Assembly: GCA_023374045.1 (NCBI GenBank)
Contig: CM041777.1
Location: 111,007,588 to 111,071,587, forward strand
Direction: 5' to 3'
Length of the DNA: 64,000 nucleotides
Source of the DNA: Limonium bicolor
Lineage: Eukaryota > Streptophyta > Magnoliopsida > Caryophyllales > Plumbaginaceae
The notes below the pieces were generated by a model. It was not told the DNA's origin. It ran no database searches and was given only the letters and a program-made list of their open reading frames with translations. A program made the translations under genes and the position numbers. Of the stretch, positions 17,011-52,475 are shown piece by piece (the first letter of the stretch is position 1; every line of letters begins with the position of its first letter).

Positions 17011-17016
17011 AGTTTA

Positions 17017-17034: not shown

Positions 17035-17215
17035 AATTGATTATTCAATTTCCCTTGGTTCGGTACTTTAGTTTTTGTGCGTTTAGTACTTTTATCTGTT
17101 TTATTGCATTCTTTGGTATTTGTGTTTTTAGTTGTTGTCTATATTTTTACATTTCCTTCTACTTAAGAGCATTTGGTGTTGGTGCAGTTTAGGTACCTTC
17201 TATTTTTCTCGGTGT

Positions 17216-18451: not shown

Positions 18452-18456
18452 CCACA

Positions 18457-25483: not shown

Positions 25484-25593
25484 GACTACAAAATTAAAAA
25501 AGAAAACACAAACAATTATTATATGCACAATGACACATAATCATTGGAATTTATCAATAAAATAAGGTAACAAACAATCATACATCAAAACAG

Positions 25594-28500: not shown

Positions 28501-29140
28501 CTTAGCCTCATAAAAGCTTTTAGGGATGTTGTTGTTTTCGGGAAAAAGGTCATGATATGTCTGACAAAATCGATCAATCAACCCTTGCTGTGCATTGAAG
28601 TCAGTTTTGATCTTCAACAACTCAATGGTAATTGATAACAAGGTATGGTTTCCATTGAACAACTTCTTTCTAGCAGATTCCATTAGCTCATAGAATTGCT
28701 TAGCTTCGGGGTTTGGTGTGTCATCTACTTCCTCATCAGTCTCTATCACAACATCCAGTTCATTTGACATCTCCTCTGGATTCACCCCAATAGCATCAAT
28801 AATCATTCTCTCATAAGTGTCAATGTCATCCAAACTAGTAGTTTCAACTGTAGGTGTGAAATCATCTGCACTTGCAAATATCTTCGCCATGAAACTTCCA
28901 GTGAAAGTATCCAAACATGAACCCTTTCTGAGCAAGATGGAGTTTAACAGTCTCCGGATCAAGATATTGTTTGTTCATGCACTTCTTCATTATGCAAGGG
29001 CACTTAATTTTGCCATTGACTATGCACTCTGGATGTTGAAGGGCAAAATCAACGAACCCTTCCATCTTTCTCAACCATTGTCGACTTACTTTACCATTCT
29101 CCACTCTTCCCTCATACATCCACTTTCTTTCAGTCTGCAT
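25594..29140 (-). CDS. tnpD-like: TnpD-like CACTA transposase
   Basis: The order of domains is that of plant CACTA transposases. An N-terminal transposase-associated domain (29140-28880, WMYEGR, GFVDFAL, CPCIMKKC) is followed by the Transposase_21/tnp2 core in a long frame to 26849 (RWHAEH, SDSKAWKHFD, GLCTDGFQPF, LLIRHNLDVMHIEKNV). A DUF4218 region (CKLERIFPPSLFDSMEHL, WMYPFER) follows. Two GT-AG introns, 26761-26848 (88 bp) and 26357-26442 (86 bp), keep the frame into a last exon with a DUF4216-like region (FKCHWFDP). The N-terminal domain and core are in different frames near 28860-28890, so there is either a frameshift mutation or an unrecognised intron. Confidence 0.9.
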
Positions 29141-31919: not shown

Positions 31920-32830
31920 ATCGCCATTCAAGGGTTGCAAAATTACAGTGGAATGCGTAAATTACCATGACTGTAGCGAACTTACCGTGAGTATGTTTCT
32001 TCTTTGCCAGTTAGGGGTTGCAAAATTCTAATGGATTGCAGAATTGCTGTGACTGCAGCAAATTACCGTGAGTGTTTCATCTTCGCCAGTCAGTGGTTGC
32101 AAAATTACCCTGTCAAAGCGAGAAGATCGAGTACTTAGTCAGTGAGTTTGATTTTGGTTGCGAGGGATACAATAAACTAATAAATTCTCTCATGGCAGAA
32201 GAAGACTACTACTCATCATCATCCGCCCACAGCTTCCCAGCTTGGACCTCCAAATCCGCATCAATGGCCGCCAAACCTTCTTTCTCAATCAGGTGTAAAA
32301 GGATTGCAGATTACCGTGACTGTAGCGAGCTTACCGTGAGTCTGTTTCCTCTTCGCCAGTTGGGGTTGCAAATTCCAATGGATGCAGAATTACCGTGACT
32401 GCAGCAAAATTACCGTGAGTGTTTCATCTTCGCCAGTCAGGGGTTGCAAAATTACAGAGGATTGCAGAATTACGTGACTGTAGTGAGTTAGGATTGACAC
32501 ATTACCGTGAGTGTAGTTTTCGATCTTCAGTCAGGACAGAGCAAGTATGTTCCTTCAATGGCTGGCGCAGAGAAACCGGTTGTTGTCCTCCAGTTAACAC
32601 TGCAAAATTACAGTTAGTGAAGATTGAGAACTTGAATCATATCAAGAAGTAACAACAACAAAGACTACCGTGAGTGAAGACAGATGTTCTTGTTCACCAG
32701 GTACCGCGAGTGAAGACAGTAATCACGCACAAATTCAGGAGTGAAGATGGTGAGCTATTACCGTGAGTGAAGATGAGTTCGCCAGCGAACCATTGCAAAA
32801 ATTACCGTAAGTGAAGATGGAAAGATAGAG
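31920..32830. repeat. Degenerate repeat array, TTACCGTGAGT / GGTTGCAAAATTA
   Basis: At least eight occurrences of TTACCGTGAGT and several of GCCAGTYAGGGGTTGCAAAA alternate at about 80-110-bp spacing, interrupted at about 32110-32300 by unrelated sequence. It lies internal to the right GAGACGG array of the CACTA. Confidence 0.75.
32110..32300 (+). other. Possible captured gene fragment
   Basis: Between repeat units lies a non-repetitive stretch with a plausible start (CTCATGGCAGAAG at about 32190) and a Ser-rich N-terminus (MAEEDYYSSSS, then FPAWTSKSASMAAK). I do not recognise it. CACTA elements often carry host exons, but chance remains possible. Confidence 0.25.
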
Positions 32831-32874
32831 TGGTGTAATGTTAGAGTTAGGGTTATAATTTAGCGACAAAATAG

Positions 32875-33202
32875 TCGTCTCCAAATAGAGTCGCATTTAA
32901 CATTCCGTCGCTATTTGAGAGGAAATTTAATTCCGTCTCCATTTGAGACAGTAATATTCCGTCTCTATTTTTTTCTAATATAGAGACAATATTTTCGTCT
33001 CTATTTCGTCTCTATATTCAGTGTAAAATATGAAAACAGCCCGCGTTCTGATTCCCGCATTAATCCGTCTCCATTCTAACTCATTCCGTCTCAATTATTT
33101 TAATCTTTATTTCGTCTCTAATCCGTCTCTATTCCGTCTCATACAGAGACGGAAAAATTTCCGTCTCAATTTCCGTCTCTAAATGGCTGTTTTTTAGTAG
33201 TG
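32875..33202. repeat. CACTA subterminal repeat array, right
   Basis: CCGTCTCTATT and GAGACGG motifs occur in both orientations, ending in the TIR. It matches the left array in motif but not in order. Confidence 0.85.
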
Positions 33203-34545
33203 TTTGAGATAAGAGTAAGGAGTTTATTCAAGCGTAACATAGGCTACAAGTGATTGATGGTAGATTATCTTTAATTTCTTCAGAGTACTGTTGATTGTTT
33301 GCGCAAGTTGATTAGAACTGCTACAACGTTACCCAGGTACGATTTCTCGTACTCAGCTTGATGTTTTGGACTTTATGGAATGTGTTGTACGATTTCTCGT
33401 ACTCCGATATTTTTAATGGTTGACTTGTGGAATGTTTTGGAAACGCTAACTGACTTTAAGAGGATTTTCTAAGAAAAAAATTGGTTGTGTGACTGACTCA
33501 GCTTGTGTGACTAACTGAGCCTTGGATGTGGAACTCACTTGGGTATTGGTTTCTTCTACTTGGTTGCCCGTTAGACATTGGCTGCTTAGGGTTTACGCTT
33601 CTGCACTCTGTAGGACTGAGTGTTTTGGTATTGCTCTGGGTAGTTGGTGATCTGGCGGGATTTTTGGAAAAGGGTCAATCTTGGAAATCTTTCTTTCGAC
33701 GTGCGCGCGTCTTTAATGGTAACAGTAGGGGGCTGTATATCCCTCGCCCATAGGGGCATTGATATTTGACAGTGAGGGGCTGTATATCCCCAGTCCTTAG
33801 TGGACGTGATAGACAGTGAGGGGCTGTATATCCCCTGTCCTTAGTGGACGTGATAAACAGTGAGGGGCTGTATATCCCCTGTCCTAAAAGGACGTGATTG
33901 GCGGTGGGGGCCATCTCTCCCAGTTGAATTATTCCACTCTCGAGTTCTTGTTCTTGGATCTACTTTATCATTCCTAGTCCTTTGTGGCTATCTGGGTTTT
34001 TCCACTCCTAACGGGAATTGGTTCTAACATCAACAATGGATGCTTGCTAACTATTGGTGTGACTACTTAAGTGGATGACTTGGTTTGGAAGTTCTTTATC
34101 TTTGTCTTGTTTTCCTTTCTCTTTAAACTTGATTGTTTTGAAGTGCTTTGTCTCTGTTTTACTTTTAAGAGTTTGTTTTCATGTTACTGTTTTTTTGAAG
34201 AGTTATGTTTTATAAATTGTTTTTGGAGAATTGTACCAGTTCCATTCCAGGGAACTGACTCACCCCTCTCGGGGTGGGCTGCTTGGTTTCATCTTGCAGG
34301 TACGAATTGATTTACAGGTGGCCACGAAGAGAATGAGCGTTTGGGATGGGACTAGGTTTTGTGGAGAGTTAATGTGTTAAATTTCTATTATGTTTGTGTT
34401 AAGTTTTTCTCGAGTTCAGACCGTAGCTTTTGTAGATTGTAAGTTGTAATTGGTGAGGTTTGGTGCCGGGTGTTTGGAACCCGATGGTCTGTAATCGCCT
34501 TAGAGTTTTATTTCCGCTGTATTTATGGTTAATAGGGGCGTTACA
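33203..34545 (+). repeat. Tekay-like LTR, right part
   Basis: This continues the LTR after the CACTA. At 33727-33912 it carries about four tandem units of 43-46 bp with GGGGCTGTATATCCCC and TTAGTGGACGTGAT. Its end GGGGCGTTACA abuts the primer site. Confidence 0.78.
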
Positions 34546-34550
34546 GAAAG

Positions 34551-34563
34551 TGGTATCAGAGCG
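34551..34563 (+). promoter_or_regulatory. Primer binding site of orphan Tekay-like element
   Basis: TGGTATCAGAGCG five bases after the LTR matches the initiator-Met tRNA primer sequence used by Tekay/Del elements. It is the same as in the outer element. Confidence 0.85.
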
Positions 34564-34749
34564 TAGTTACGCTCTGAACCCGAGAAAACAAGCAGAGTGA
34601 AATACCTAGATTATAGGTGCACTTAAAACTGGGGAACTGGGGGTTAGAATTGGGAAGGAGGACTCCAGTAAGGCACGACAACCCTTTTTGGAATGTGAAC
34701 GATTCCTTACACTTTCTTTTGTGAATGTCTGTTGAGTGTGATGTGTTGT

Positions 34750-35105
34750 TATACCGGTTTACCTATTGTTCCTTGCTTTATTGGTGAAATTGACTGCGGT
34801 AGTGGGTTATGTGATCTAGGTGCTAGTATAATATTATGCCTCTCTCAACTTTAATAAGCTTGGAATTGGTAAATGCCCCCACTCCCATTCAATTGCAATT
34901 AGCGGATAGATCTTTAGTTGTCCCTAAAGGAAGGTAGAGGACTTGGTAGTAACTATTGGTACATTTGTTTTCCTAGCTAATTTCATTATGATAGATATGG
35001 AAGAAGACCAGAGAGTGCCACTAATTTTGGGCAGACCTTTCATGAGAAATGCTAGAGCCCTTATAGATGTGGAGAAAGGCAAATAATTCTGCGACTCATG
35101 ATGAA
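34750..35105 (+). pseudogene. Athila protease remnant
   Basis: The frame begins after the orphan leader with PIVPCFIGEIDCG and LCDLGASI, the Athila form of the aspartic protease active site (D-L-G-A-S). ADRSLVVPKG follows and, after frameshifts, VPLILGRPF. The N-terminal side was lost with the gag C-terminus. Confidence 0.82.
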
Positions 35106-36350
35106 AAATTAGGAATTTGACATGTCTAAAGTAGTGAAGAGACCGTCACAGGCTGAGGCTGTTTTTGCTATAGATGTCATAGATTCAATTGTGCAGGATC
35201 ACTCTCTCTCTTGTTAAATCTGATGCCCTTGAATTAGCTTTGTTTGAGTCTTGTTTTGAACAGGAATTTCACCCAGATATGATTGAAATGGTGGCTGAGT
35301 TGAACAACAGATTTTCTGGCTATAGACCACGTTATCCGCCACCCGAACCATTGGAACGAGCTGCTCAGAAGCCGCTGCCTTTGGTTGAGAAGCCTCCCAC
35401 TGTGAAGATGAAACCTCTACCCTCTCATCTTAAATATGCTTATTTGACAGATCCGTGCGTTCTACCTGTTATTATTTCTTCTTCCTTGACAGGTGCGCAA
35501 GAGGAAAGTCTGATGAAGGTGCTCTGAAACCATAAACGGGCTATCGGGTGGACTATAGCCGACATCAAAGGGATCAGCCCTCATTTCTGCACCCACCGGA
35601 TATTCATGGAAGATGACTACAACCCATTGGTCCAACCTCAGAGGAGGTTAAATCCCAATATGATGGAGGTTGTAAAAAAGGAAGTTTCTAAACTGTTAGA
35701 TGCGGGGATTATCTATGCCATCTCCGACAGCAAATGGGTCAGCCCGTGCAAGTGGTCCCAAAGAAAGGAGGCGTTACCGTCGTCCCAACGAAAAAGGTGA
35801 GCTGGTGCTCATAGGACTACCAATGGTTGGAGAGTCTGTATCGACTACCGGAAACTGAACACCGCCACCAGAAAAGACCACTTCCCTCTCCCGTCATTGA
35901 TCAAATGCTCAAGAGGTTGGCGGGCAAGACTATTACTGCTTTTTGGATGGATATTCGGGTATCTCCAAATCCCCATAGCTCCTGAGGACCAGGAGGACGA
36001 CTTTTACATGCCCATATGGGACGTTTGCCTACACCCGGATGCCTTTCGGACTTTGCAACGCCCCGGCCACATTTCAGAGATGTATGATGGCGATCTTCTC
36101 CGACTTCCTCGAAAAAAGTATTGAAGTCTTTATGGACGACTTCTCCGTTTTCGGCACCTCCTTCGACACTTGCTTGGACAACCTCGACGCTATTGATCCG
36201 GTGTGAAGAAACAAATCTTGTGCTCAATTGGGAAAAATGCCATTTATGGTAAAAGAAGGAATTGTCTTGGGGCCAAGATCTCTTCAGAAGGTATTGAGGT
36301 AGACAAAGCTAAAATTGAAGTAATTGAAAAGTACCTCCTCCAACATCAGT
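35106..36350 (+). pseudogene. Athila reverse transcriptase remnant
   Basis: Pieces in several frames include a linker (SLVKSDALELALFESCF), LKYAYLTD, RAIGWTIADIKGISP, the RT fingers (VVKKEVSKLLDAGIIY), RVCIDYRKLN at about 35830, and the catalytic box as FMDDFSVFG at about 36130. At least five indels or stops occur, so no RT can be made. Confidence 0.88.
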
Positions 36351-36910
36351 GAAAGACATTCGAAGCTTTCTGGGTCATGCCGTTTCTACAGAAGGTTCAT
36401 AAAGATTTCTCCAAAATCTCAAAACCCCTCTGCGACCTCTTGGCCAAGGATGTTAAATTCGAATTCACAGAAGAGTGCTTTAGTGCCTTCAACACCTCAA
36501 ACAGTGCCTTATATCTGCACCTATCGTGGTTTCCCCTGATTGGAGTTTACCGTTTGAGATCATGTGCGACGCCAGTGACTATGCGGTGGGGGCGGTCTTT
36601 GTCAAAGAAGGAAAAGATATTGAGGAGTATCTACGCTAGTAAACTCTCAATGACGCCAAAAGAATTACGACCCCCCCGAAAAGGAGCTGTTAGCTGTGGT
36701 TTTCGCCCTCGACAAATTCCGATCCTACTCTTGGGCAGTAAGGTTGTGGTGCACACAGACCACTCAGCAAAGTACTTGTTCAACAAAGGTGATGCGAAAC
36801 CTAGACTTCTCCGATGGATTTTACTTCCTGCAAGAATTCGAGATAGAGATCTGGGATAAACCGGGTGTGCAGAATGTAGTGGCTGATCATCTATCTCGAT
36901 GGAGGTCCCT
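36351..36910 (+). pseudogene. Athila RNase H remnant
   Basis: FEIMCDASDYAVGAVF at about 36545-36600 is the start of the RNase H fold. VVVHTDHSAKYLF and, after a shift, NVVADHLSR at about 36880 close it. Small indels separate the pieces. Confidence 0.87.
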
Positions 36911-38265
36911 GATGATGGTGTGCCAATCAACGAATTTTTCCCAGACGAGAGATCTACATGAGCCGAGACCGGAGACCCATGGTATGCGACTTTGCAAATT
37001 ATTTGGCAAGGGGAGTGGTCCCACCGGAGATGACATATCAACAAAGAAAGAAATTCTTCTCTGACGTCAAGAGGTATTTCTGGGAGGACCTTTCTTTTCA
37101 AAGTTTGTGCTGATGGGGTGATCCGGAGATGTGTGCCCATGAGTGAAGTGCAGGAAATTCTGATTCACTGTCATCGGTGTGAAGCCCGGGAGGACACCAC
37201 GGTCCGGCACGAACAGCAGCCAAGGTTCTTCAAGCCGGGTTTTTCTGGAAAACCCTTCATAAGGACTGCCACTCGTTCGTTGCCTCCTGTGACCAATGTC
37301 AGTGGCTTGGAAACACCTCACGCAAGCATGAGATGCCGCTCAAATAATGATAGAGGTTGAGCCGTTTGATTTGTGGGGTATCGATTTCATGGCCCTTCCC
37401 ATCTTCTTGCCAACTTGTTTATTCTTGTGGCGATCGATTATGTAACCAAGTGGGATGAAGCAATTGCAACCCCGACTAATGACGCCAAAGTTGTGATCAA
37501 ATTTCTAAAGAAAATATTTTCATCCGGTTCGGGGTACCGCGAGCATATTGAGTGATGGCGGGTCTCAATTTTGCAAAAACAATTTGAAGCGCTGATGAGT
37601 ATAATACGGAGTGAGGCACAAGGTTGCCCTTCCTTATCACCCTCAATGTAATGGCCAAGCTGAGGTCACCAACAGAGAGCTTAAATGGATCCTCCAAAAG
37701 ACTGTCAACTCCTCAAGGAAAGATTGGTCCATTATGCTTGATGATGCATTGTGGGCATATAGGACCGCCTACAAAACTCCAATCGGTATGTCCGTTCCGG
37801 CTTGTTTATGGGAAGTCTTGTCACTTGCCGGTTGAATTAGCGCATAAGTCATATTGGGCGGTGAAGGCCCTCAACTATGACCTCAAGAGCGCCGGTGACA
37901 AGAGACAGTTCCAATCGACCGAGTTAGAAGAGATTCGGGAGGAAGCCTACGAAAATAACCGCATCTATAAAGAAAAGGCCAAGAAATGGCATGATAAGAT
38001 GATTATGAAACGGGAGTTTCACGAAGGTGATCGGGTTCTCCTCTACAACTCAAGGTTGAAGTTATTCCCCGGGAAGTTAAAGTCTCATTGGGCTGACCCT
38101 TTTACTGTCACGAAGGTCACCCCCTATGGAGCTTATGAGCTGAAGAATGTCAAAGGGGAGACTTTCATGGTAAACGGTTCCCAGCTAAAGCATTATCATG
38201 GAGGAGACATCCAAAAAGTTGAAGCTCGGGCTCTTTACTTAAGAGACCCTCCAGGTTTCCTCTAA
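36911..38265 (+). pseudogene. Athila integrase remnant
   Basis: The zinc-finger end (ASCDQCQ at about 37290), LWGIDFM of the catalytic core at about 37370, and [18 protein letters not shown] at about 37637 are in different frames. From about 37790 an uninterrupted C-terminal stretch runs to the stop at 38265 ([13 protein letters not shown], then FHEGDRVLLYNSRLKLFPGK). Breaks in the core destroy function. Confidence 0.9.
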
Positions 38266-38489
38266 CCCTCACTATGGTCTAGCCAAAGACCTTAAAAAGA
38301 CGGGAAGCTTTCCGGGAGACAACCCGGACTATTGTCACTTTTACCTTGCATTATTTTCTCATTTGAGTTATGTTAGTTATTTGCTTATTCTATGCTTTAT
38401 TTATTGTTTGATTTGGTTGTTTCTGCATGTTGAATATGTTTTTGATTGATGATAAGTGTTGTGGGCAAGAAAACAAGCATTTTGGGGAG

Positions 38490-38695
38490 ATTCTGGTCTC
38501 GACCGAACTTGCGACCGGACTTGCAAGGTCGGTCGGGCCAAAATTTTGAAACCCGGACCCTCTGGAATGGACCGAACTTGCGACGGACTTGCAAGTCCGG
38601 TCAGGCTGAAAATTTCCAAAATCCAACCCTTCTGGAATGGACCAAACTTGCGACCAGACTTGCAAGTCCGGTCGGGCTAAAATTTTTGAAAAAAA
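38490..38695. repeat. Three units of the Athila LTR-type palindromic repeat
   Basis: Three roughly 65-70-bp units, each with CGAACTTGCGACCGGACTTG-like sequence followed by CAAGTCCGGTC or CAAGGTCGGTC, are separated by CTGGAATGGACC. The same unit type occurs three times in each LTR (15912-16095, 42448-42640). Confidence 0.85.
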
Positions 38696-39046
38696 ATAAG
38701 AATAACGCTGCGTTTTACAATTTTTTTTTACCTTCTCTTCTTCTTCCTCGCCTCGCCAGCCCCGACTCCCTCTCTCGCCATTACCACCTCTTTCCTCTCT
38801 CACTCGCGCAGCACCAACTCACCACCACCCACCACTTCCGCCACTCCGCGCGCCACCGCCACCGCCCCCGTCGTCCGCCGCTTCGCGCGCCTCCGCCGCA
38901 CCGCACGCCACGCCTCCGCATCAGTCGCACCGCAACCCCCACCAAATCGCAACCCTAAATCGCCCCAACCCCCAAATCGCCTTAATTTGCGATTTTCCAC
39001 CAAAATCTGTCATATTTTGCTCCCTAATCCCCTACAATACATCAAG

Positions 39047-39736
39047 GTATATTTTTCTAACAATATATTGTCCATTCTTGCACTTTTTGGCGAAGTTACA
39101 CTTTGGGCAAAATAAAAATCAAACCAAACGAGGCCTTAACTGGCAATTCGTGAATTTTGAACATTTAGTGATTGGGATAGCTCTGATTGTTACTTATGGG
39201 GTGTTTGTGCAAACTGAATTTGACCGTGTTGCAATTTGGTGGCTTTTGCGTGACTTTGGCCTTCATGCTCTACATTTAGTAAGGCTTTGTTTAGCGTTAT
39301 TTGCTTGGTTTAAAATTGTGTTATGACTTTGTTGGCCTACTTGGATAATGCGTGAGCGTAATTGAATCTCTATGCCTAGGGTACTGCATTAATGTTGAGA
39401 TTTGGAGTTAGCCAAAATGTGAAAATGGGTAGAGTGTGGATTTGCTTCTTCAGTGTGGATCTTATTGGATGACTTGGGGTACGGGGGTGCTTGAATATCG
39501 GAATGCGAACCGTTTGGTACTTTGTGGAGGTTCTTCGAACCGAGGAATGATAGAAAAACAGGGGGCTCTGGCAAAATTTTTCCAAACAACTATCGTTTCT
39601 TTTACTCTTTCCTGCGTTTCTTGCTACATTTTTCGCCACTTCTTTATAGTCATCTTAATTGGTTTTCTAACACTTCAATGGTTGTTATTTTTGTTGTTTC
39701 TATTTTGCATTTTCTTTTTCTTTATCTGTTTTGCAG
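39047..39736 (+). other. Putative leader intron before env-like ORF
   Basis: A donor CAAG-GTATAT at 39047 and an acceptor CTGTTTTGCAG ending at 39736 flank AT-rich, T-rich sequence. The ATG of the env-like ORF follows four bases later. Upstream, 38740-39000 is GC-rich and resembles a 5' UTR. This would allow the ORF to be made from a spliced or separately initiated RNA. Confidence 0.5.
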
Positions 39737-39739
39737 ACC

Positions 39740-40935
39740 ATGGCCCATCGACCCCGTCGTGCGAGGAGACAGGTGGCTGCCCCCGTACCAGAGCCAGAAT
39801 TTCCTAATGCACTTCTCGACGGCATCTTCGTCAGCGCAGATGCCCGAAGCTGGTTCAACTCTCCTAGACGGAGGGAGATAGTTCAGGAGCGCGCGGTGGA
39901 CCCGGCGCTCGAGGCGGACCTGCAGCTCCGGCCTTATCTTGAGGCCATCGGGTGGGGCTGCCTACTCACCATGGGAGGTCCCTACTACCCTCGCCACATC
40001 AAAGAATTTATGCCAACGCTACGGCCGATTGGAGGGTGCGCGAGGTCAGCTCCTTCGTCAATGGTGTGCCCATCTTCATTCGGAGGCTGGACGTCCTCAC
40101 ATTCTTCCATCTGCCACGGGACGACCTCCGGCACTCCAAGTGCATCCACCAGGCCGACCTTAATGCCAGCCGGCGTCACTACCTCAACACCCTCCCAGTT
40201 CAGACGCGTCACAAGAACCAGGACGGGACCGACGTTCGGCTCACTATGACCCCGGCGATGATCGAGGACCCTGTGCGACGCCTCATGCTTGCTCTGCTCC
40301 AACACAATCTTCTACCTCGGGATAGCAAGGACCTCAATGCCACCGACTGCTACCTGATGGACTACATGGTGGCACCGGACCCCGACAAGCCCCTCTCCCT
40401 CTCCGATCTTTTCATGGCCCACCTCTGCCACATCATTGAGAAGAAGGATTCCCACCACTTGGGGTTTCCACACGTTCTACAGCGGATGTTGGATCGCTTC
40501 GGAGTCGAGCCCCAAGCGGATGAGGTGGCGACCTTGCCTATGGACCCTATCTCAGCCACCACTCTGCGGAAGATGGGCTTTGTTCGCGAGGACGACGGGT
40601 GGCACTAGGCCATCGCTGAGCCTAGGCCGCGCCGAGGTGCATCATCCTCTTCCGGTGCCTCCTCCTCCACTTCTACACCCGGCCCGTTCCTCGCCCTGCC
40701 ACCTCCACTACCGACCGGAGCGGTGACCCCGGAGCAGCTAGAGGTGTTCGAGAGGCAGATGGCTGAGCACCGCCGTCTCATGGAGGAGCATCAGCGCCAG
40801 ATGGACGCACAGATGCAGTACCTTCGCGACCAGGAAGCGCGTGGTGGTGCTCCCCCCAGTAGCCATCTTCGGATCCCGGGATGCCCGGCCTTTGTTTCTC
40901 TGCTGCTTTCTTCTATCTTCAGCATTCTCTTTTAG
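39740..40935 (+). pseudogene. Athila env-like / plant transposon protein ORF
   Basis: The ATG at 39740 opens a basic N-terminus (RPRRARRQV). A conserved block (VREVSSFVNGVPI, then MDYMVAP) fits the putative plant transposon protein domain found downstream of integrase in Athila-type elements. A one-base loss near 40010 shifts the frame and a TAG at 40606-40608 interrupts it. Beyond this a Pro/Ser-rich linker, a Glu/Gln-rich coiled coil (QMAEHRRLMEEHQRQM) and a hydrophobic C-terminus (FVSLLLSSIFSILF) follow in the same frame. The role is unknown. It is called env-like by position and by the terminal hydrophobic segment. Confidence 0.75.
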
Positions 40936-42169
40936 GCTGTTAGACTTTGTTAAGATGTTGGCTATGCTTGTACTTTACACTTTCTTTACTTTCGTTTTCG
41001 TACTCTTACTTCAGAGCTATGGTGCCTTACGCACCTTATTGACTACTTCGCTCTGGGGCCCACCCCTTTTGATTATCTAACATTGGCATCAATGCGAATT
41101 CTCTGGAATCCATTTGCGCCTTGTTTCTTTTTGGTTTTGCATTGTAGATATATCCACTGAACTCGACAACACCCCGAAGTAAGTTAGGGGAAAATCAAGA
41201 CCACCTCTGGTCAATTTTTCCTAGGATCTTCGACTCTTCCTGTCGAAGCTAGCGCTTACATGCATATGCACAGTGGCAAGTGTGGGGGAAACCCAGCCAC
41301 CAACTCATTTTTATCCGGGGAGTACTAGTTCTCTAACCCTTCCAATTTTCGCAATGCAACACTCTTTTTAATTACTTCATGCCTAGTGCTCCCAGAAGGT
41401 CTTCTGTTTGTTTTTTCATGAACTTTTCATCAAACAATGAGGACATTGTCCCATTCAAGTGTGGGGGAAATGACCTTTTCTTGTTGATGCACTACTCAAT
41501 TTTCTCATATTTATCTATAGCTTCATGTAGGAGTTATGTTTTAAGTAAGCAAGTTTTTCTTTGAATTCTTGGAATTTTCCACCGAACTTTTTTTTTCAAA
41601 GGTTCTCTCTTGAGGAGCACTTATGTGCGGTGCAATCATAACTCCATTTCGTGATGAATTTTTATTGCTTAGGGGTTCCTTCTACCTTCTCATCTAGGGA
41701 TTGCTAAGGGGTGCTTCCTTGTAAAAAAAAAAGAGAAGACAAAAAGGACCTTGAGAGACACCATAGGTAACCAACAAATGAGAGTTGAGTGTTCATTGAA
41801 GCAAGGCAAAATGCCAATTTTCCTCTCCTCATCGCTTGTTGCAAAAGTGAATCAAATGCAAATCTCTATTTTTCCTTTTGTTTTCCCTCAATGCCCATTC
41901 TTGAGAGAAGTTGGCCATCGTAAAAGTTCTCCAAGTTTCATAATCTGTAGGAACTTGGAAGCACTCTAGATCATACCCCGAAACTCTACATTTTCATTTT
42001 CCCTAAGCGCACCCATGTCATCATGAGAAGGTTGGTTGCACTCCTCCTGAGGTTTTTCACAAATTTTGCTCACTCGAATTCAAGAACTCATCTAAACACT
42101 TGCTTGCTTTAAATGTTCCTTCTTTTCGTGGGTCCTTAGCTAATTTTGCTTGAGGACAAGCAAATAGAT
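40936..42169 (+). other. Athila 3' noncoding region with PPT-like copies
   Basis: No ORF is credible here. AAGTGTGGGGGAAA occurs at 41278-41291 and AAGTGTGGGGGAAATG at 41457-41472, each resembling the true PPT at 42170. GAGGACA precedes both the second copy and the PPT. Confidence 0.7.
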
Positions 42170-42183
42170 AAGTGTGGGGGAGT
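42170..42183 (+). promoter_or_regulatory. Athila polypurine tract
   Basis: AAGTGTGGGGGAGT directly abuts the TG of the 3' LTR at 42184. Confidence 0.9.
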
Positions 42184-43559
42184 TGATAAGTGGTGAATCA
42201 GTGCTCTCCCAAGGTCTTTATTCACCGTCATTTTATTTGGCGCTTGACTTATTTCACCACTTTATGAAGTATTTTTGTGTTTATTAGTGATCTTATACTT
42301 TTGGCATGTTCGAATAGGTAATTACTCATTTGAGTACATTTTGAGAGCTTAATATGGGGATGCATCAATGTTCGAGCACCTCGGGAATGATGCCTAGCCA
42401 ACGGGAAGCATCGGGAGAATTCCGGCATAGGAAAAATGACATTCTGGGGCCGACCGACCTTGCGACCGAACTTGCAAGGTCGGTCCGGCTCTGTTCAAGC
42501 CGTCCCAAAACTCACTGGAATCAACCGAACATGCGACTGAACTTGCAAGTTCGGTCGAGCTTTAAAACCCGTCACGTGTTTCCGCCTAAAAGAGTCCGAC
42601 CGGACTTGCGACCGGACTTGCAAGGTCGGTCGGACGGGAATTTTTGCCCAGAAATTGCTATTAAAAGACTACATTTTGGGGCTTCCTTCCCCATTATCAA
42701 ACACCCACTTTCAACCCTAAACAGACGAGAGGAGGCGAAAATAAGGAGAAAAGAAGAGGAGAAAAGAAGAGAAAAAAGGAGGAAGAAGAAAGTGAAGATT
42801 TCTACCTCCATTGAAGCTTGGGAGCTCCTCTAATGGCTAATTCTGCCTTCTCCTTGCTCTTTCCTTTAGCCATGTCTGAGTAGTTCCATTTGTATCCTAG
42901 GATGAGGGTTTGAACCCATTTTGCTCATTGAATGCTAGAAACCTAACTCATTAATTACTCTCGTTTTATTCCCTTCAATATCAATTAATGCACTAAACTG
43001 ATCTCTTATTGCATTTATGGTGGTTCCATTCAATATTTGAGCTTGAGTTTGGAACTAGACCAAGAAGGGAGTAAACCCTAACTTTTGCTTTCTTGATTTT
43101 GGGAGTAAATGCTTAGGGCTGTTAATTAAGAGTGCTTGCTTATTACTATTTGATGACTTGAACCTCCTTTAATTAAGGGGTTTGATTAATTGGGGTAAGA
43201 ATTGGATTTCCCATGATTTGGGGATTCATGAGCTAAACTCTAACTGGCACTGAGATGATGAGTTATGGTTTTGAGGTTCTTTGAGTGAATTGGGAGATTC
43301 CCACTATCCTAGGGTACTCTCCCCATCCATTCCATTCACAAACACTTACTGTTTTTGTTGCATTTCAATTAACAAACAACCAAGCTTGCCTCTGGCTAAA
43401 CCCCCATTTTACTGTTTATTCGCACTTAACTATTATACCGAAACTCGGGATTTAGAAACCAATTTCCTTGTGGATACGACACTTGTTTTATTGCAACGAA
43501 TTGGGTGCACTTGCCCACTTTAGCTAGGTTCAATTACTATGTATGTAATTTTCTCAACA
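42184..43559 (+). repeat. Athila 3' LTR (1,376 bp)
   Basis: It matches the 5' LTR with scattered substitutions and small indels. It includes the three palindromic units at 42448-42640. Confidence 0.95.
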
Positions 43560-44178
43560 GGTGGTGGCATACCGGGAAGCTCCTTAGGGAAGAGCTCTGG
43601 AAACTCCCCAACCACTGGTACATCTGAATTAAACTCCGGGTCTGGCTGAGTATCCTGTACATAACAGAGGTACACCTCCTGCTGCTTTTGAATCTCTTTG
43701 GCCATGGTCATGGCTGATATGACTTTCACAGACGGCTGTCGGGGGTTCTGGCGGTAGGACACTGTAACGCCAGACGGGCTCTTTAGTAGTAGTCTATGTT
43801 CGGCACACAAAATACGACCTCGGTGTTTCTCTAACCAATTCATGCCCACAATGACGTCGAATCCCATGCCTCTGAACTCTATTAGGTCCAACGGGAAATC
43901 CTCCTCTCTGATTCTGATGGTGGCTCCTCTGAAATACCGGGTACAACGAACTCTTTCTTTTGAAGGTAGTGTCACACGGAAATCTTCCAACTCCACGGGC
44001 TCAAGGTGCAACTGCTCGGCTAATGTCGGGGATACGAATGAGTGTGACGCCCCTGAGTCGAATAATACTGAGGCTGTAACTCCATTCACCGGGAAGGTGC
44101 CAGTGATAATGTGGCCGCTATCACCGGCCTGAGCCTGCGTGAGAATGCTCAGGGTACCCTCTGACCAGGGTCCAACAC
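43560..44178 (-). CDS. Tekay aspartic protease, 3' end cut by Athila
   Basis: The minus-strand frame contains LTQAQAG, then VLFDSGASHSFVS, the retroviral-type aspartic protease motif D-S-G (active Asp at about 44059-44057). FDVIVGMNWL, the flap-side conserved motif, follows, and ELFPKELPGMPP leads into the RT. It reads open to 43560, where the Athila LTR begins. The RT continues at 15638. The likely first base of this exon is 44178, after an acceptor AAATAG. There is no good ATG, as expected for an exon of a gag-pol polyprotein. Confidence 0.9.
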
Positions 44179-44316
44179 CTATTTCCAAAAATAACGTTTA
44201 TAAGTACAATTAGTGATGGTACGAGAAGAGTAGTAGATAATCAGCCTTTCTTTATTCATCTTTCCAACATTACATATTCGTTCCATTACACAACTTAATA
44301 CAAAAAGGTACAAGGC

Positions 44317-45046
44317 TTAATACTTCCTAAAGGTTAGGTTTAGTCGTCAGGCTTCATATGGGTAGCGTTTATCACTGTTGAGGGTGCTGTGTTCAGCTTG
44401 ATTCTCTTAATCCCGTGATATAGCATTCTCGATGGTCCGCCCATGATCAACACGTCACCGGATTTTAGCCAGATCTTCATAGCTCGGTCAATCCTCTTTT
44501 CTTCACCATAGAGGAACTCAGCATCATCTCCGATGGACACAGACACTATGGGTATCCCTTGATCTAGGGTCTCATGCATCTCGTCCTTGTCTTGGAGTAA
44601 TCCAAGTCGGCCTTACCTCTCGTAGAAGTTGATGATGCAGATGTCGGCTTGTAGGTCGGGTACTGGTTGTACTTCGCGTTGCTGTGCAACGCGTAGGGTT
44701 GCCGTAATTAGGGATAGAAAGTCCTCGGGAATTGGTGGTGCATGTGCTCCGTTGGTGGAGTAGCTCTTCGTATATGGGTTCCAAATCTTACCTAGGCACA
44801 TCATTCTGAGTTTCATCATCTTTCCTCCGGGGTATGTCGGTGTGTAGAACCCGCCTGGTCCCACTCCGAACTTACGACATCTTCGAATAATGGCTACTTG
44901 GGCTTCAGGTGTTAGGTATCCTGGTAGTAGAATCATCCCGGGCTGGATAACTTGGCAGTTTCCACTTGGGTAGTAGGGATTCTCAAGGCTGTACCCGTCG
45001 GGTTCGAGGTTTGGATTTATTGGGAAGCACATATCAAAGGTTTCTA
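44317..45046 (-). pseudogene. alkB-like: AlkB-type 2-oxoglutarate/Fe(II) dioxygenase inside retrotransposon
   Basis: The frame has IQPGMILLPGYLTPEAQ, GVGPGGFY, LRMMCLGK, DICIINFY, GRLGL-LQDKDE, SIGDDAEFLYGEE, SGDVLIMGG and LYHGI, then, one base out of frame, RLNLTFR before a stop at 44317. This is the ALKBH1-like AlkB fold in full order. AlkB enzymes use Fe(II) and 2-oxoglutarate to remove methyl groups from nucleic acids. Three lesions are visible: a TAA at 44613-44615, Leu (CTC) in place of the first iron-ligand His of HxD, and a one-base loss at about 44347 before the 2-oxoglutarate-binding Arg motif. It follows an AG acceptor (45047) in frame with the Gag zinc-knuckle exon. An AATAAA lies at 44251-44256. 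The product is a dead copy, but the domain identity is strong. Confidence 0.93.
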
Positions 45047-45172
45047 CTGCATTTAAGGGTAGTCTAGTTCTTTAGTGGTACTAGTAGTTTAGCAAATTTC
45101 ATGCATGGTCATACAGCTTGGCATACAAGAATTTAGACATGCTTTTCAACCATTTAGGGTTTCAAGGTTTAC
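45047..45172 (-). other. Putative intron C, Gag to AlkB
   Basis: Donor GCAG-GTAAAC at 45172 and acceptor TTAAATGCAG ending at 45047 bound 126 bp of AT-rich sequence. Joining leaves a phase-1 codon GTA and an open frame into the AlkB. The same donor could instead join to the acceptor ending at 44179. Confidence 0.65.
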
Positions 45173-45529
45173 CTGCAGCTGTGGGTGAGTCTGGTCCCTC
45201 GGTGCGGTCCATGATGTGCAAGACCGCCTTCCCTGGCCTCGGGGTAGATGTCTTCTGGGAGTCTCGGGATCCCGCTTCGTGCGTAGGCTGGGTGTGCTGG
45301 GCTCCACGCTGGCCTCCGGGTCCCAATCTCTGGTCACCTCTCGCACCATAGCCGGGCCTGTAATTCTTGCTCTGGGGATTCGCGAAGCACTCAAAGGCCC
45401 TGTGCCCGCTCTTCTTGCAGTAAAAGCACTCTATCTGGTTGCCCTGACAGTCAACTCCGGGGTGGTTCTTCGAGCATCGTCTACAGATATATCGGCGCTC
45501 AGTCCACTTGCTCGGACCGGCTCCAGTCC
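45173..45529 (-). CDS. Tekay gag exon 3, two zinc knuckles
   Basis: This exon begins GTGAGPSKW and holds a CRRC-SKNH-PGVDC knuckle and a canonical CFYC-KKSGH-RAFEC knuckle, the nucleocapsid part of Gag that binds RNA. A Gly/Gln-rich tail follows to the donor at 45172. Confidence 0.85.
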
Positions 45530-45610
45530 CTAAACAGGTTACTAGGTTAGTCAACAACAAGTCATAATAACTGTAAAGATATTTAAGTGCTAGAGTTTGT
45601 TTCATTTTAC
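45530..45610 (-). other. Putative intron B in gag
   Basis: Donor at 45610 (GGG-GTAAAATG) and acceptor CTGTTTAG ending at 45530 enclose 81 bp, AT-rich and without stops in frame. It can therefore be retained or removed without breaking the frame. The retained segment is hydrophobic and unlike its surroundings, which favours an intron. Confidence 0.6.
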
Positions 45611-45851
45611 CCCTAGGTGGGTATGAGCGGAACGGCTTAGTCGCAGTAGCTGGGTGGCTCAACTGAAGTCTCTCTGTAGGCTTATTCCCCTGGTATTTCG
45701 CTCGCTTCCTGGTCGGGTAGTACTTGTCCCTTCTCACGCCCTTCTGTGTGCGGTCCTCTGAGTCACCGTCCTTCACCTTCCTTTTCCTAGTGAATTCCTC
45801 ATCCCGCATCTAGATGGTGATCTCGACCTGCGACGCTGCATGATAGCAGTC
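45611..45851 (-). CDS. Tekay gag exon 2, basic linker
   Basis: The exon starts DCYHAASQVEI, the usual helix after the gag core, and continues with a Lys/Arg-rich linker (RKRKVKDGDSED). A TAG at 45810-45812 interrupts it early, so this copy is defective unless the stop is read through. Confidence 0.72.
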
Positions 45852-45922: not shown

Positions 45923-46570
45923 CTGGATCGTGGCGTAACGACTGGGCCCCATGCCATATCTGATGCGGTGATTCAGTCCACCATAGAAACACTCCACTAA
46001 GATCTCATCTGAATATCCCAAGCCTGGAAGTACACGAAGTAGAGCAGTGAACGCCGAGTAGTATTTGTCTACGGTCATCCCCTCGGTCTGCCTTAGGGTG
46101 TCTAGCTCAACTCGCTTCTTGGTCCGGAGGTGGGCGGGGTAGTACTTATCCCTCAACAACGCAGTGTAAGCATCCCATCCAAATGTGTGGTCGGCTAGGT
46201 GAGCATCCTTCACAAGCTTCCACCAATCGCTCGTTGACTCTCGTAGGTAATAGGCTGCGAGTCTGACCTTAGCCTCAGCCGAAACATTCAAGGTGTCGAA
46301 GGCGGTCTCTAGGATGCTGATGTAGTTCTCTAAGTAGGTGGGGTCCGTCTCTCCTCGGAACTCAGCTGGTCGAAGGTCTGCTAAGCTCTTCACCCAGTTT
46401 GTCTCCCTAGGTGGGTGAGGCTGTGGTGGCGGTGGTGCCTGCTGGGCTCCTGGCTGGAAACCCATGTGACCTAGGGCCGCTGCTACTATCTTTGCTATGG
46501 TCTGCCCTGCAGCCATGCTATCTTGCTCCATGTGGCCACGGCCTCGTCCTCGACCTCGTCGTCCAGACAT
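45923..46570 (-). CDS. Tekay gag exon 1, capsid core
   Basis: The ATG at 46570 opens an Arg/Gly-rich start (MSGRRGRGRGRG), then the Retrotrans_gag core: PAEFRGETDPTYLENY, AAYYLRESTSDWWKLV, FTALLRVLPG and FYGGLNHRIRY. It ends at the intron A donor. The 180-bp leader to the primer site at 46763 precedes it. This exon has no stop. Confidence 0.88.
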
Positions 46571-46751: not shown

Positions 46752-46763
46752 GCTCTGATACCA
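46752..46763 (-). promoter_or_regulatory. Tekay primer binding site
   Basis: On the minus strand, TGGTATCAGAGC lies five bases after the 5' LTR end (46769). It is complementary to the 3' end of plant initiator-Met tRNA. Confidence 0.92.
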
Positions 46764-46768: not shown

Positions 46769-49700
46769 TGTAACACCCCCGATTAACCAAACCGTAGTCC
46801 GAACGATGCGCCAAACGATGATACAACAAGTCTAAACAGCGGAGTCACAGTTCCAACCGGGTGTCACAGGCGCCAACCACCCACGTGGTTGACACAACAA
46901 CACCATCAATACTAAGCTGCGGTCTGAATGACTGGAATTAAAACCATAACCAAATCCAAGTACAAACGGGAAATACAAACCAAGTACCGAGAGTCTACAT
47001 CATAAGTTCTTACTTAAATTACACAAACCGAAACATACAACCAGGGGTTTAGTGTTACATTATCTCAACCCATACATTAAAACATACTACATAAGAGTCT
47101 TGCCCATATGGACTACCCCTATGGTAGTCACCCTGCCTACTCTCCGCCTGCTTCCAGTTTCATACCTGTAAAAATAAAGGACTCAGCAAAACTATGCTGA
47201 GTATGAATTTGTGTAGCCCGCATGTTACCGGGCCACACGACTACTTGGTCGAATATGATTAAGTCCAATTTGCATGCTATAATAAAGCAATAACACCCAA
47301 CATACAACATCAACATAGCAACACCCAATATACAACATCAACATAGCAACACCCAACATATTGGGCATAGAGTTAACAACAAGCACTACACGCATGTAAA
47401 ACAAGTCGAGCTTATAAGAGAATTTGAATAATGATGATCCTCACAGTGGGATCATTCAACGTGGAGTGTTTTCATTTCTTTTTCCTTTGTTTCCATCATG
47501 TGTACTTCTCTTTCTCTTTCTTGCACCAGGTCTGGGGATGTAGGTTAGTTCCCGTGACCATATAGTATAGGTGCTTATCTTTTCTTACTTCTTTATGGAT
47601 TAATTGTGAGTTCTCTTACCACCGCACGTTAGAGGACGTCTCCTCCATAGCTTATTCCTCCATTCCCGGCGTCGTACGTCGAAAGGGGTCATCTTTAGAC
47701 CCCAGGTTATGCTCTCCAATTAGCGATCGATCCTCCAATCCCGACGTCATGTCGAGAAAGAGGGGTCATCTCTGGACCCCAGGTCATGCTTCCCAAATTG
47801 CAATCTTCCAATCCCGGCGTCATATGTCGAGAGAGAGGGGTCACCTCGGGACCCCAAGATGTGCTCCACATTAGTCGGTCGAAGGATCTAATGCAGATAC
47901 CAACTCCCGAGCATTTCATACCGCGCGGCCCGAGGTGTTGTCTTCCCGGGTTGTTCTCATGTTTTCACCAGTTGATATTTGCTCTTCATTATCATTAATG
48001 GATAGACACCATAGTGGGTGTCATGGTACGTCCTCAATGGTTAGAGAGGAGTTCCCCGTAATGGAATTTTCTTTGTTTTCATAGTTCACATTGTCTCATC
48101 TCAAATTCCATAAACGAGAAGGGACTAAACTACTGTGTGTGCGCAAATAATATGCAACAATGATATAGCAAGCATATAACACGATAAGCAAGCAATCTAA
48201 TTTCATGCTTTAGTCTTATGGTCTTTTTCACACATAGCACACAGCAAACAAGCCGCGTAACACGGCAACATACGAACCACACATGTCCATACCTTTTTCG
48301 CAAGTACGGGTTGCCTCACACACGGGGTTCCCGGTCGGAGTTCGCTACGGCCCTAGCGTTAATTAAAAACAATGTGTCAGTTTATTATTTCATGTGACGA
48401 CACTTAATATCGTATGTTATTCCCTAAGTATATTGTTAAATGTTTAGTTTATATTAACCCTTAAAACTTCACGTGTATTTGTTCTAGGCTTATCTTACTC
48501 CTAGGACATTCATATCTTTGTTTTACACGTTGACTAAGTCCTTTTTCCTTAGTTATGTTTTAGAGCATCTTAAGCGTTATTTATGTAACAAGTTTATATA
48601 AGATATATAACTTGTCTAATGTGTATTCCTCCTTATCTAAATAGGTGAGCAATGTTTTAACCCTTGTATAATGATAATGTAGACCATAGAATACCCCTAA
48701 CACCCATTTATACAGAAGTCCAAAGTTTATAAAACCGCAACATAAGTTTAGTGTTTAATCTTACTTAACCTCTCCTTTAGTATGTCAACCCATGTTTATT
48801 TTCCCTAAACGTTTCTTCACACACAATCAGGTGAATTAGGTTTGTTTTGGGTTCATTGATAAACTAACATCTCACTCATAATATTCCTGTAACCTAGCTA
48901 TACAGAACAACACTAATATTGGAAACCGAGACAACCAACTCCATGTTTCGTTGTGTTTCTTGTTCCTAGTTAATTCAGCCGAGGTTTAAAACTTGCCCAC
49001 AGTTTCTACCCCACTATATATGGGTGTTATCAAGGTTTTAAACTCAAGATTAAATCAATAAAGCACTCACTAACCTCTGTACTCAATTATACAGAACAGC
49101 AGCTGTTGCAAAAACTGAAACCGAAAACAGTGCAGTACACCTCTATTCCCTCCCTTGTGCCAGTAGTTAATTGATTCCTAAATTCTCAAGTGAATTTGCC
49201 AACTTAGTTTACCTCTCAAATAATGTTCCGTGTTCATACCTAAGACACTATAACACTTCTACTACCTCAGAAAACCTGTTACACAGAAACAGAAAACTGA
49301 AACACAAAGTGGGTATTCTTATTTTCTATCTTTCTTTCTTTCCTGTGCATTTACGTCTCTGTCTTCCAAAACTCTCCCAAAGTGCTTACTTAATTTGTTA
49401 CGTGTTTTTAGCAAGGTCTCTAACTTATGACAGACCCACAACAACGAGGGCCACTCCTCTGAAAAAGAAACTCCTCACACAGAACCTGGAATGTTGCAGA
49501 AACAGAAAAGGCTGATACCGACTTACTATCCTCTATTCTTCTCTTTGTTTACAGATTGTCTTCTATTTCTCCCAAACTCATTTTAGCCACTCTGTTAAAC
49601 ATCTCAGTATGTTTGTTTTTCTTTTAAACTTCAGACAACTCAAGACAACAAGTAACATAACTGATAATGCTCCTCACCAGTAATGAAAAGAAATCGAGTA

Positions 49701-52470
49701 CAGAAACTGGAAGAAGAGACAGAACCCACCAGATGTGAGCTGTTGCATTTACTTACTGTTGTTTTTCTTCCCCGATTATTAACATGGCCTCCAACCTCTT
49801 CCTAAATTATTAACTCTCGTAGTCTGGTGTATGCTCAAGTTTTAGGTGCCTCACAGCCCCAAGGTAACACAGACCACAACCCTGATAATAGTCCTTTTTT
49901 TTTCACAGAACAGAAACTGATATCTTCTGTTTCCTTCTGTTAATTTGCTTCGGTTACCTAGTCTATATCTTAGTTTTCCTTAACTATTTTAGTTACCTAA
50001 TTGTGTATTCTATTACAGTTCTAGCTCTAAGACAACCCAAGACACCAAGTCAAGGTTACAGAAAACCATCCATACTGAACTAAGAGTTCTAAAAAAACTA
50101 ACCCATCTGAAACAGAAAACTGGTATTGATCTTTCATTCCTCTCTTATTTTCCCTCATTGTTCTTTAACCAGGCTTTCACTTCTACCTAAACCTTTCCCC
50201 GCCTACTAAAAGTTTCATCAGGAGTTTAGGTCCAAAGCTAACCCACAACAACAAAACTACACCCAGAGAAGTTAATATGCAGAAAGCACAGATTTTCAGA
50301 AACTGAAGTTAATGTATTTTCTGTTATCGATCTCTCGGTTTCTTTTAATTTGATTTCTGGTTTGCTCACTTAGTTTCGGGTTCTATTAACATTTTAACCC
50401 CAACAATAGCAGTCACACCCCTAAGAAGTTCATATACAGAAAACATATATTTCTTTCAGAAATTGAACTGATATATCTCTTCTGTTACTGCTTCTTCTGC
50501 TCTTTTATTGTAATGTCTGTTTCTGTTTTCTTTTCTTTTCTGTTTTCTTTTCTTCTTTCACATTCTCAAGCCTAAGTACTCAGTCAGGAGCATTATAAGT
50601 TTGCATTTGTACTAGCCACTCAAAACAGGCCCAACACAACCTGTCACAATACTGAAACTCTCCTTTACTGAGATGGTGAATTTCAGAAGCTAATCCTATT
50701 GATATACTCTCTTTGCTTGCTTACAGATTGGTTTGACTCTTTTTCCTAATGTGGCTAGGACTTAAATAGGTGCATTAGTAATCTATCAGTTTCATCATTA
50801 AGTCAGTAGGATTCTGATAACAGTGCTGAAGCTTAATTACACAGGAACAAAGTCTTAGAGAGTTATATAACTGAAGCAACAGAACTCAATATGTTGATGT
50901 TGTGTTTTTTTTTTCGAAGCATTAGTTTAGTAGAGCTCACCAGTGAGTGTCTAGGCAGTTTCTCTTGGACTATTTCTTTGTTGCCCACAGGACTTCAACT
51001 CCTTGATCAGTCTACACAGCTGAGAAAGTTTTTATCAAGTAGTCAGGCCGATTCAAATCAGATAGACAGATCATGGAACTGGTAAGAGGTTTACCTGGTT
51101 TTATGATGTGTTTAGAAACATAAATGGGATTTTCCCCCTGGAGAGTCTTGGCACTATCCTTGAGTTATTTCACAAGTATTGTCACGCAAGCAATGAGGAG
51201 GGAAATGGTTAGACCTTAGAGAACCTCAGATACTAAAGGAAGAGAATAACAGAACTGGAAATCCCACGGTATTCATTTTCTTTCTCTCTGAACCCATAGC
51301 CTCACCTTAGCAGCTCCTCGAGGAGAATTTGCTTTTAGAAGTTTCCCAGGACTCCAGCAGTGAGTGAGGGTTGCCGGGCTTGCGTAAGACAGAAAAGGAT
51401 TAGAGAAGTTCATGTTGGTATTATCGGGCAAGAAAAACATTCACAAACGGAGAGGAATGCAGTACAGCAACTCTTACCTTGGGTGCTAGAATCAGAGAGG
51501 GTGAAAGAAGTTCCTGCCCATGCAGAACGATACACAGCAAGGAGAGTGGAGGAGATGGTCTATGGGTTTTGAATAAAATGGCACAAAGCACGGGAGACCA
51601 ATGCAGTGTGTGGGATTTGTAAAACATGGTTCTGGTGCATAAAATTTTGAAACTAGAAAAAACAGACCTTGTCTGTCTACTGCAACCACGACGCTACTGA
51701 GAGTGGGAGTGGGAGTGGGGGAAATAATTACTAGATATGAGAGGTGGTTTCAGGTTACACAGATAGCGTGGGGAATTCCCTGCAGAGCATAAGCTTGTCA
51801 TCGTTTTTTTATTCCCACGCATTACAGAGGGACTGAGAGGGCGGGAGATTTAGGAGGGGACAAGAATTGAGTGTTCTCAAGTTACAAGAGACATGGGCGT
51901 TAGAAATAAAATAGAAACTGTCGCCTGAGTTTTCCTCTGGTTCATAGTTATTTTGTTCGATCAGTAGCTACACCGAGGAAGGAGACGGTGTACAGAGGTA
52001 TGTTTGTTTCATCTCTTTTTGTTTTTGTAGTACTTAGTTAATTGATACTAGTTTTTATTTATGGGTATCATTACCGAATTCGAGCATAGCTCAACCGGTT
52101 AAGACGTTCACTAGGCATACGAGAGGTACGGGGTTTGAACCTCAGCGGGAGCGTATCTGCTCCTTTTTTTTTCTTTTATAAGCTATGCACATGTTCATTT
52201 GTATATATGTACGACTATATATTATATCGTGTTATTATTAGATTTTTTTTTCTAACGAAGTTATGCGACGGTATGTTTACTTATTTACAACGTTACAATA
52301 TCGTAATGTTACGTACAGTATTTTTGTACAAGTACGTGACTATATTGATATATAACGTCGTCACGCGTTCGGACATGTATATATACTAAATTAATTGTTC
52401 ATACATATTTTATGTCCGAATTATAAAACGCGTTATGTTTTTATGCGTTTCAATGTTCAGGGGTGTTTCA
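46769..52470 (-). repeat. Tekay 5' LTR (5,702 bp)
   Basis: This is the partner of 6755-12454 with the same ends, tandem repeats and tRNA-like unit. Differences are scattered substitutions and short indels. Short frames have no domain. Confidence 0.96.
52078..52172 (+). other. tRNA-like Pol III unit in LTR, right copy
   Basis: The A box at 52087-52098 is identical to the left copy. The B box has one change (GGTTTGAACC). The hairpin and nine-T terminator (52164-52172) are kept. Confidence 0.65.
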
Positions 52471-52475
52471 CTGTT

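Follow-up and report, generated by a model that had tools for sequence, protein, structure and literature searches.

AlkB-type demethylases have already been described in plant retrotransposons. Ogre-type elements of Phalaenopsis carry an ALKBH5-type demethylase that removes m6A from RNA in vitro, and in a screen of 121 plant genomes an AlkB domain was found in the retrotransposons of two Phalaenopsis orchids only, according to the available part of the report (PMC9289625). An earlier note on the DNA analyzed here had regarded AlkB as unknown in retrotransposons, a view contradicted by these orchid elements. Beyond the orchid case, no AlkB-carrying retrotransposon was found in the titles and abstract openings of the literature matches listed. 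The accessible sections of a Retand survey name a demethylase only where the orchid paper is cited (PMC11963269), and those of a 2025 review cite the orchid case together with ALKBH9B, which frees ONSEN RNA from stress granules (PMC12786077). A review of additional open reading frames contains no mention of AlkB, Tekay, chromovirus, oxygenase, or intron (PMC7264820).

AlkB domains are also carried by plant RNA viruses, namely flexiviruses and relatives (PMC9289625, available part). Likened by description alone, these viruses and the element analyzed here are mobile genetic elements with an AlkB of their own. In plant RNA viruses, AlkB is located in the replicase. For retrotransposons, the production of alternative products by splicing is documented in the sections at hand for EVADE (Ty1/copia), in which splicing coupled to premature polyadenylation gives a short Gag mRNA (PMC8892269), and for Ogre elements, the introns of which are removed from part of the transcripts (PMC6317226).

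The AlkB-carrying element of Limonium bicolor resembles the orchid element Gypsy_Pa_2799 in that both are multi-copy Ty3/gypsy elements with a captured, conserved plant AlkB that keeps its Fe and 2OG ligands. What is new here is the AlkB branch, the lineage of the element, and the position of the gene. As far as the orchid elements are characterized in the available text, Gypsy_Pa_2799 belongs to the Tat/Ogre lineage and is 25 kb long, whereas the Limonium element has a chromodomain and spans ~18 kb without its nested insert. Tat/Ogre elements are non-chromoviruses with a tRNA-Arg primer site, unlike the Limonium element with its primer site TGGTATCAGAGC. The orchid AlkB is of the ALKBH5 type, an m6A demethylase in vitro, and is encoded by a separate ORF2 beside the Gag-Pol ORF; the Limonium AlkB is a predicted enzyme of the ALKBH1 type, located between the gag and protease exons in 20/20 loci.

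The window, i.e., the whole 64-kb stretch of DNA that was analyzed, contains one copy of the element (Table 1). Its two 5.7-kb LTRs are 96.0% identical, have TG..CA ends, and differ by a K2P distance of 0.031 over 5671 sites; the target-site duplication CTGTT borders the element at 52471-52475 and 6750-6754. Assuming 1.3e-8 substitutions per site per year, the insertion is about 1.2 million years old. The primer-binding site is presumably of the initiator tRNA-Met (tRNA-iMet) type. The order Gag-protease-RT-RNase H-integrase was found inside one LTR pair, RT and RNase H being recognized in other copies: the RT piece at 15296-15637, the single one scanned in the window, had no Pfam match, and copy L014 has RVT_1 (130 bits) and a clear RNase H. 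In the pol of the window, Integrase_H2C2 scored 61.3 bits and rve 27.4, the latter below the cut-off of 32.6. A chromodomain at the integrase C-terminus (Chromo, PF00385; 25.7 bits, barely over the cut-off of 25.1) places the element among the chromoviruses; Tekay is the label of the earlier note.

The element is split in the protease region by a nested Athila-like element, the LTRs of which have a K2P distance of 0.031, about the same as that of the surrounding element, and the gag of which (17135-18448) matches PF03732. Within this insert, a DNA transposon of the CACTA/En-Spm type was found on the minus strand (~23583-28974), with the domains Transposase_21 (tnp2, 260.6 bits), DUF4218, and DUF4216, and with Transposase_24 (23583-23993) below the cut-off.

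Table 1. Features of the AlkB-carrying element and of its nested insert in the 64-kb window.
Feature	Position	Strand	Remarks
5' LTR of AlkB-carrying element	46769..52470	-	96.0% identical to 6755-12454
Primer-binding site TGGTATCAGAGC	46752..46763	-	5 bases past 5' LTR
gag exon 1 (capsid)	45923..46570	-	PF03732 51.5 bits, PF19259
Remaining gag including CCHC zinc knuckle	45173..45851	-	zf-CCHC 20.3 bits, slightly below cut-off of 20.8
Predicted intron 3, containing AlkB exon	44179..45172	-	splice sites, both phase 1
AlkB exon, ALKBH1-type 2OG-Fe(II) dioxygenase	44317..45046	-	broken in window copy
AATAAA 3' of AlkB stop	44251..44256	-	likely poly(A) signal of AlkB transcript
Protease exon	43563..44178	-	PF08284 96.8 bits; interrupted by nested Athila-like element
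Nested Athila-like LTR element	15639..43562	+	LTRs 15639-17013 and 42184-43562; name given by eye
Remaining pol: RT fragment, RNase H, integrase, chromodomain	12884..15638	-	Integrase_H2C2 61.3 bits, Chromo 25.7 bits
3' LTR of AlkB-carrying element	6755..12454	-	paired with 46769-52470

The earlier note had placed a complete, ALKBH1-like AlkB between Gag and protease, on the coding strand and within the LTRs. The location was recovered exact to the base (exon 45046..44317). Completeness holds for the exon and not for the gene in the window: its reading frame is interrupted by a stop codon following NFYER and shifts close to the C-terminus, and the first iron-ligand His is replaced by Leu; the full HxD...H and RxxxxxR set is absent from this copy. 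The exon of copy L013 is open and encodes 242 residues, herein referred to as P0001, which match the entire PF13532 profile (160 bits, 1-194/194) and contain the motifs LGLHQDKDE, YHG, and RLNLTFR. An open frame was found in 29 of the 64 aligned copies (20/40 + 9/24), L010 being partly out of frame. HxD and the second His, which bind iron, and RxxxxxR, which binds 2OG, are all kept in 23 of these 29 copies (16/20 + 7/9).

The best PDB sequence match of the L013 AlkB is rice OsALKBH1 (E 1.7e-69), and the PDB sequences with E<=1, 21 in total, belong without exception to the AlkB or ALKBH1 types. The AlphaFold model (pLDDT 81, pTM 0.84) predicts an AlkB fold with confidence. Its nearest structures are those of rice OsALKBH1 (5xoi/5xeg; 48-49% identity, TM 0.82/0.80 by query length), followed among PDB fold matches by E. 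coli AlkB; the first ALKBH5 stands at rank 46, with 17% identity, among the 50 fold matches listed. Judged by sequence and fold matches, the element AlkB is nearer to ALKBH1 than to ALKBH5/9/10, and the PDB sequence matches, the fold matches, and the tree described below all agree with the assignment given in the earlier note.

The splice sites around the AlkB exon are mutually compatible. The gag exon extends to 45173, where it is cut in phase 1 and borders on GTAAAC; the acceptor ATGCAG/TA at 45046 reads on in frame into AlkB, and the acceptor AATAG/GT at 44178 reads on in frame into protease, so that the gag donor and both acceptors are all of phase 1. Among the 64 aligned copies, the AG of the AlkB acceptor was found in 64 (63 truly reach it, L067 does not), the AG of the protease acceptor in 63 (39/40 + 24/24), the GT of the gag donor in 60 (39/40 + 21/24), and the AATAAA downstream of the AlkB stop in 56 (37/40 + 19/24). 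The simplest reading of these sites would be that AlkB is an alternative last exon: spliced onto Gag, with the transcript ending after AATAAA, it would give Gag-AlkB, and when skipped, Gag-protease-Pol. On these sequence grounds, production of Gag-AlkB by splicing appears rather likely. EVADE and Ogre, as described in the available texts, are similar to this model in using splicing (EVADE also early polyadenylation) for alternative products; they yield Gag alone or Gag-protease joined to Pol, whereas the alternative last exon of the Limonium element would add an enzyme. Counting against the splicing model, full-length genomic RNA would be at risk from a functional poly(A) signal within the element. 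In the best 120 of 448 matches to the AlkB part, Gag and AlkB domains were never found in one protein.

Alternatively, AlkB may be expressed alone, from an intronic transcript or an internal start, and act as a free enzyme instead of a Gag fusion. The separate ORF2 of the orchid AlkB (available part of the report) and the internal ATG codons of the exon (M5 and M37 of P0001) are in line with free expression. It is nevertheless rather improbable, given that the acceptor AG is kept in 63/63 copies reaching it and matches the gag donor in phase, and that the short open stretch upstream of the acceptor in the window has no ATG.

The gag region was aligned for 18 of 21 rows, L010, L017, and L026 being omitted for an interrupted or partial gag. 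Intron 1 (45922-45852) has an in-frame stop in 18/18 copies and the donor GT in 18/18, and is likely real. An 81-base stretch with splice-like ends (45610-45530, minus strand) is open in 17/18 copies; it may be a retained intron (intron 2) or plain coding sequence, its status as an intron being doubtful.

The module was found throughout the sampled family. With the AlkB exon as the query, a nucleotide search gave 4623 first-look places, of which 40 were scored; 40/40 matched. Besides the window, 20 loci were retrieved (19 of ~10 kb and one of 6.5 kb), and the order gag zinc-finger exon, AlkB, protease was found in 20/20. A further 19 loci, of 1.5 kb each, align from the gag donor through the protease acceptor. 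A second sample was blind to AlkB, with the protease exon alone as the query and 40 of 3405 places scored; 15 of the 40 were at already known loci and 25 were new, and for the latter the 1.2 kb preceding protease was examined. AlkB was present in 39 of the 40 protease-picked copies (24/25 of the new ones), L067 being partial. Altogether, the AlkB exon is in place in 63 of the 65 family copies examined, all sampled as those nearest to the window by AlkB or by protease; L067 has only its last third, and L059 has none and also lacks the gag exon there. A one-off insertion of a host gene, named in the earlier note as the finding that would speak against a module, is ruled out by the presence of AlkB in 39/40 protease-picked copies.

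Outside AlkB, a stop was found in gag exon 1 in 13/18 rows and in protease in 10/21. Most sampled copies are damaged outside AlkB, and hence none has been demonstrated to be wholly functional. Stops shared by at least two copies in the gag exons (45173-46570) and in protease (43563-44178) are mostly CGA->TGA or CAG->TAG, a pattern expected from deamination in methylated DNA or from spread by helper-dependent copies.

Distances between copies in AlkB are weakly correlated with those in gag (Mantel r 0.25, 57/2000 permutations as high) and in protease (r 0.26, 149/2000 permutations as high; 18 copies in both cases), which is too little to demonstrate strict vertical descent of AlkB with the element. 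The weakness of the correlation could be due to recombination among copies. Among the copies picked by AlkB, divergence is lowest in AlkB itself (0.038 vs. 0.071 in gag), an outcome favored by the selection of copies; in the protease-picked set, the divergence of AlkB is 0.092, vs. 0.120 and 0.087 in the two intron flanks.

Variation within AlkB depends on how widely a variant is shared. Relative to the neutral expectation, i.e., the N:S ratio derived from the mutation spectrum at 966 non-coding element sites of the first 21 copies (seven rows being omitted from the LTR part of this control), the N:S ratio among 64 copies was 269:97 for variants in single copies (1.17 of expectation, p 0.21), 101:68 for variants in 2-3 copies (0.63, p 0.003), and 38:66 for variants in at least 4 copies (0.24, p 1.2e-12), with a chi-square p of 1.7e-11 for the trend across classes; all these p values are overstated, the variants of related copies being non-independent. 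Wrong-frame controls gave 1.3-2.0. The 24 new protease-picked copies alone gave 232:102 for variants found once, 64:40 for those in 2-3 copies, and 15:32 for those in at least 4 copies. A codon model for AlkB of 40 copies (45 codons masked) gave an omega of 0.289. Elsewhere in the element, the N:S ratios of shared variants were 32:46 in gag exon 1, 28:23 in exon 2, 22:17 in exon 3, and 23:77 in protease; thus, a shared synonymous surplus was also found in protease and gag exon 1 and is not clear in gag exons 2 and 3. Neutral-like rare variants together with constrained shared ones are expected if AlkB is needed during replication and decays after insertion. By these substitution patterns, AlkB is under purifying selection in the replicating lineage.

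It could be argued that AlkB is a passenger, a piece of a host gene caught once in an intron and copied without function: the predicted intron is a tolerant location, the window copy is broken, and 35 of the 64 aligned copies have no open frame. This explanation is very improbable and already contradicted by the strong, frequency-dependent loss of non-synonymous change and the omega of 0.289, by the retention of all catalytic motifs in 23/29 open copies, and by relatives that at 55-71% identity keep most of the same residues (P0005 ends before RxxxxxR). As called for by the test proposed in the earlier note, multiple copies carry AlkB between gag and protease, with AlkB under purifying selection, and AlkB is almost certainly a fixed, selected module of a multi-copy family.

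The origin of the module was analyzed in a tree of 62 rows, comprising 54 host or host-like proteins, 4 element proteins, and the database proteins P0002-P0005, with no ALKBH5 row. The element rows and P0002-P0005 form one clade with a support of 100/100 and a long stem, and the closest host row is an Arabidopsis protein, placed there with a weak support of 90/67. Plant ALKBH1C/ALKBH1D and OsALKBH1 (5xoi/5xeg) are like the element AlkB in fold, as modeled, and in catalytic residues, and identity to named plant ALKBH1 proteins is 42-52% among the matches listed; host ALKBH1 genes differ in having a longer N-terminus and in lying outside the clade. P0002-P0005 are encoded on contigs of 1-27 kb, are 55-71% identical to the element AlkB, keep most of its catalytic residues (P0005 being the truncated one), and share with it, by eye, signature residues and a short linker, the latter also found in some legume host rows. 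They are possibly retrotransposon genes representing the same module in other plants.

No further protein with such identity and the clade signature was found in the best 120 of 7937, 549, and 448 matches. Four other candidates, the long and high-scoring proteins P0122, P0173, P0174, and P0175, were rejected as retrotransposon genes: their only Pfam match is PF13532, in 2-4 stretches, and they have no Gag. Viral contigs searched with P0001 patterns gave no match; among plasmid records, 50 matched these patterns, all at <60% identity, and the five listed are bacterial. The capture of AlkB was probably independent of the orchid case, the AlkB branch, the element lineage, and the position all being different from those of the orchid elements (available part of the orchid report), and probably old. 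We infer its age, since a long stem arises from fast evolution too.

As its most plausible function, the element AlkB may be a methyl eraser of nucleic acids acting on the RNA or cDNA of the element itself, a proposal for which we see an even chance. In the proposed mechanism, the Gag zinc knuckle would bring AlkB to the element RNA within particles, where N6- or N1-methyl-adenine would be erased; the RNA would thereby escape m6A-dependent sequestration, or blocks to reverse transcription would be cleared. The model as a whole, with an alternative exon spliced onto Gag and Gag-AlkB demethylating the RNA or cDNA of its own element, is slightly favored.

The substrate can be argued in two ways. 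The orchid precedent and ONSEN favor m6A in RNA. The ALKBH1 branch of the enzyme favors single-stranded DNA or m1A in tRNA (available parts of PMC10469495 and PMC7475180), and for the same reason the analogy with ALKBH9B and Onsen drawn in the earlier note is weaker than it appears. NbALKBH1L was rejected as support, being called an ALKBH9B homolog by its authors despite its name, in the part of the article at hand (PMC12736721).

It is accordingly conceivable, if somewhat unlikely, that the main substrate is DNA or the primer tRNA rather than m6A in RNA, i.e., 6mA/m1A in single-stranded cDNA and R-loops or m1A58 of tRNA-iMet. Besides the placement of the element AlkB in the ALKBH1 branch, this possibility is favored by the primer-binding site, which we take to be of the tRNA-iMet type. 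The fold match ranked next, E. coli AlkB, accepts DNA as well as RNA as a substrate, which weighs against a substrate restricted in this manner. According to the sections available, 6mA in single-stranded DNA and R-loops is erased by rice ALKBH1 (PMC10469495), and ALKBH1 is stated to erase m1A58 of tRNA (PMC7475180, introduction).

The product might also act on host nucleic acids or chromatin, loosening the silencing of the element, instead of acting on element RNA. Rice ALKBH1 associates with genes and opposes H3K27me3, according to the accessible part of the same study (PMC10469495); the predicted Gag fusion suggests particles, and a host target is quite unlikely.

In a broader and only tentative reading, methyl erasers belonging to different AlkB subfamilies were captured at least two times by unrelated Ty3/gypsy lineages. 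The eraser described here would be an ancient one of the ALKBH1 type, present beyond the genome of Limonium bicolor, fused to Gag by alternative splicing, and acting in particles on genomic RNA, first-strand cDNA, or primer tRNA.

The naturally open copies make the enzyme open to assay, and the in-frame alternative exon defines a precise, testable product, the predicted Gag-AlkB. If the enzyme prefers single-stranded DNA or m1A, this would point to reverse transcription after packaging and not to m6A in mRNA. The orchid case alone could have been a curiosity. With its predicted activity, the Limonium element would be a second example, probably independent of the first, of a retrotransposon equipped with its own methyl eraser, and capture from another AlkB branch in another lineage suggests that adenine methylation on the RNA, cDNA, or primer tRNA of plant retrotransposons is a real barrier, which has been repeatedly escaped.
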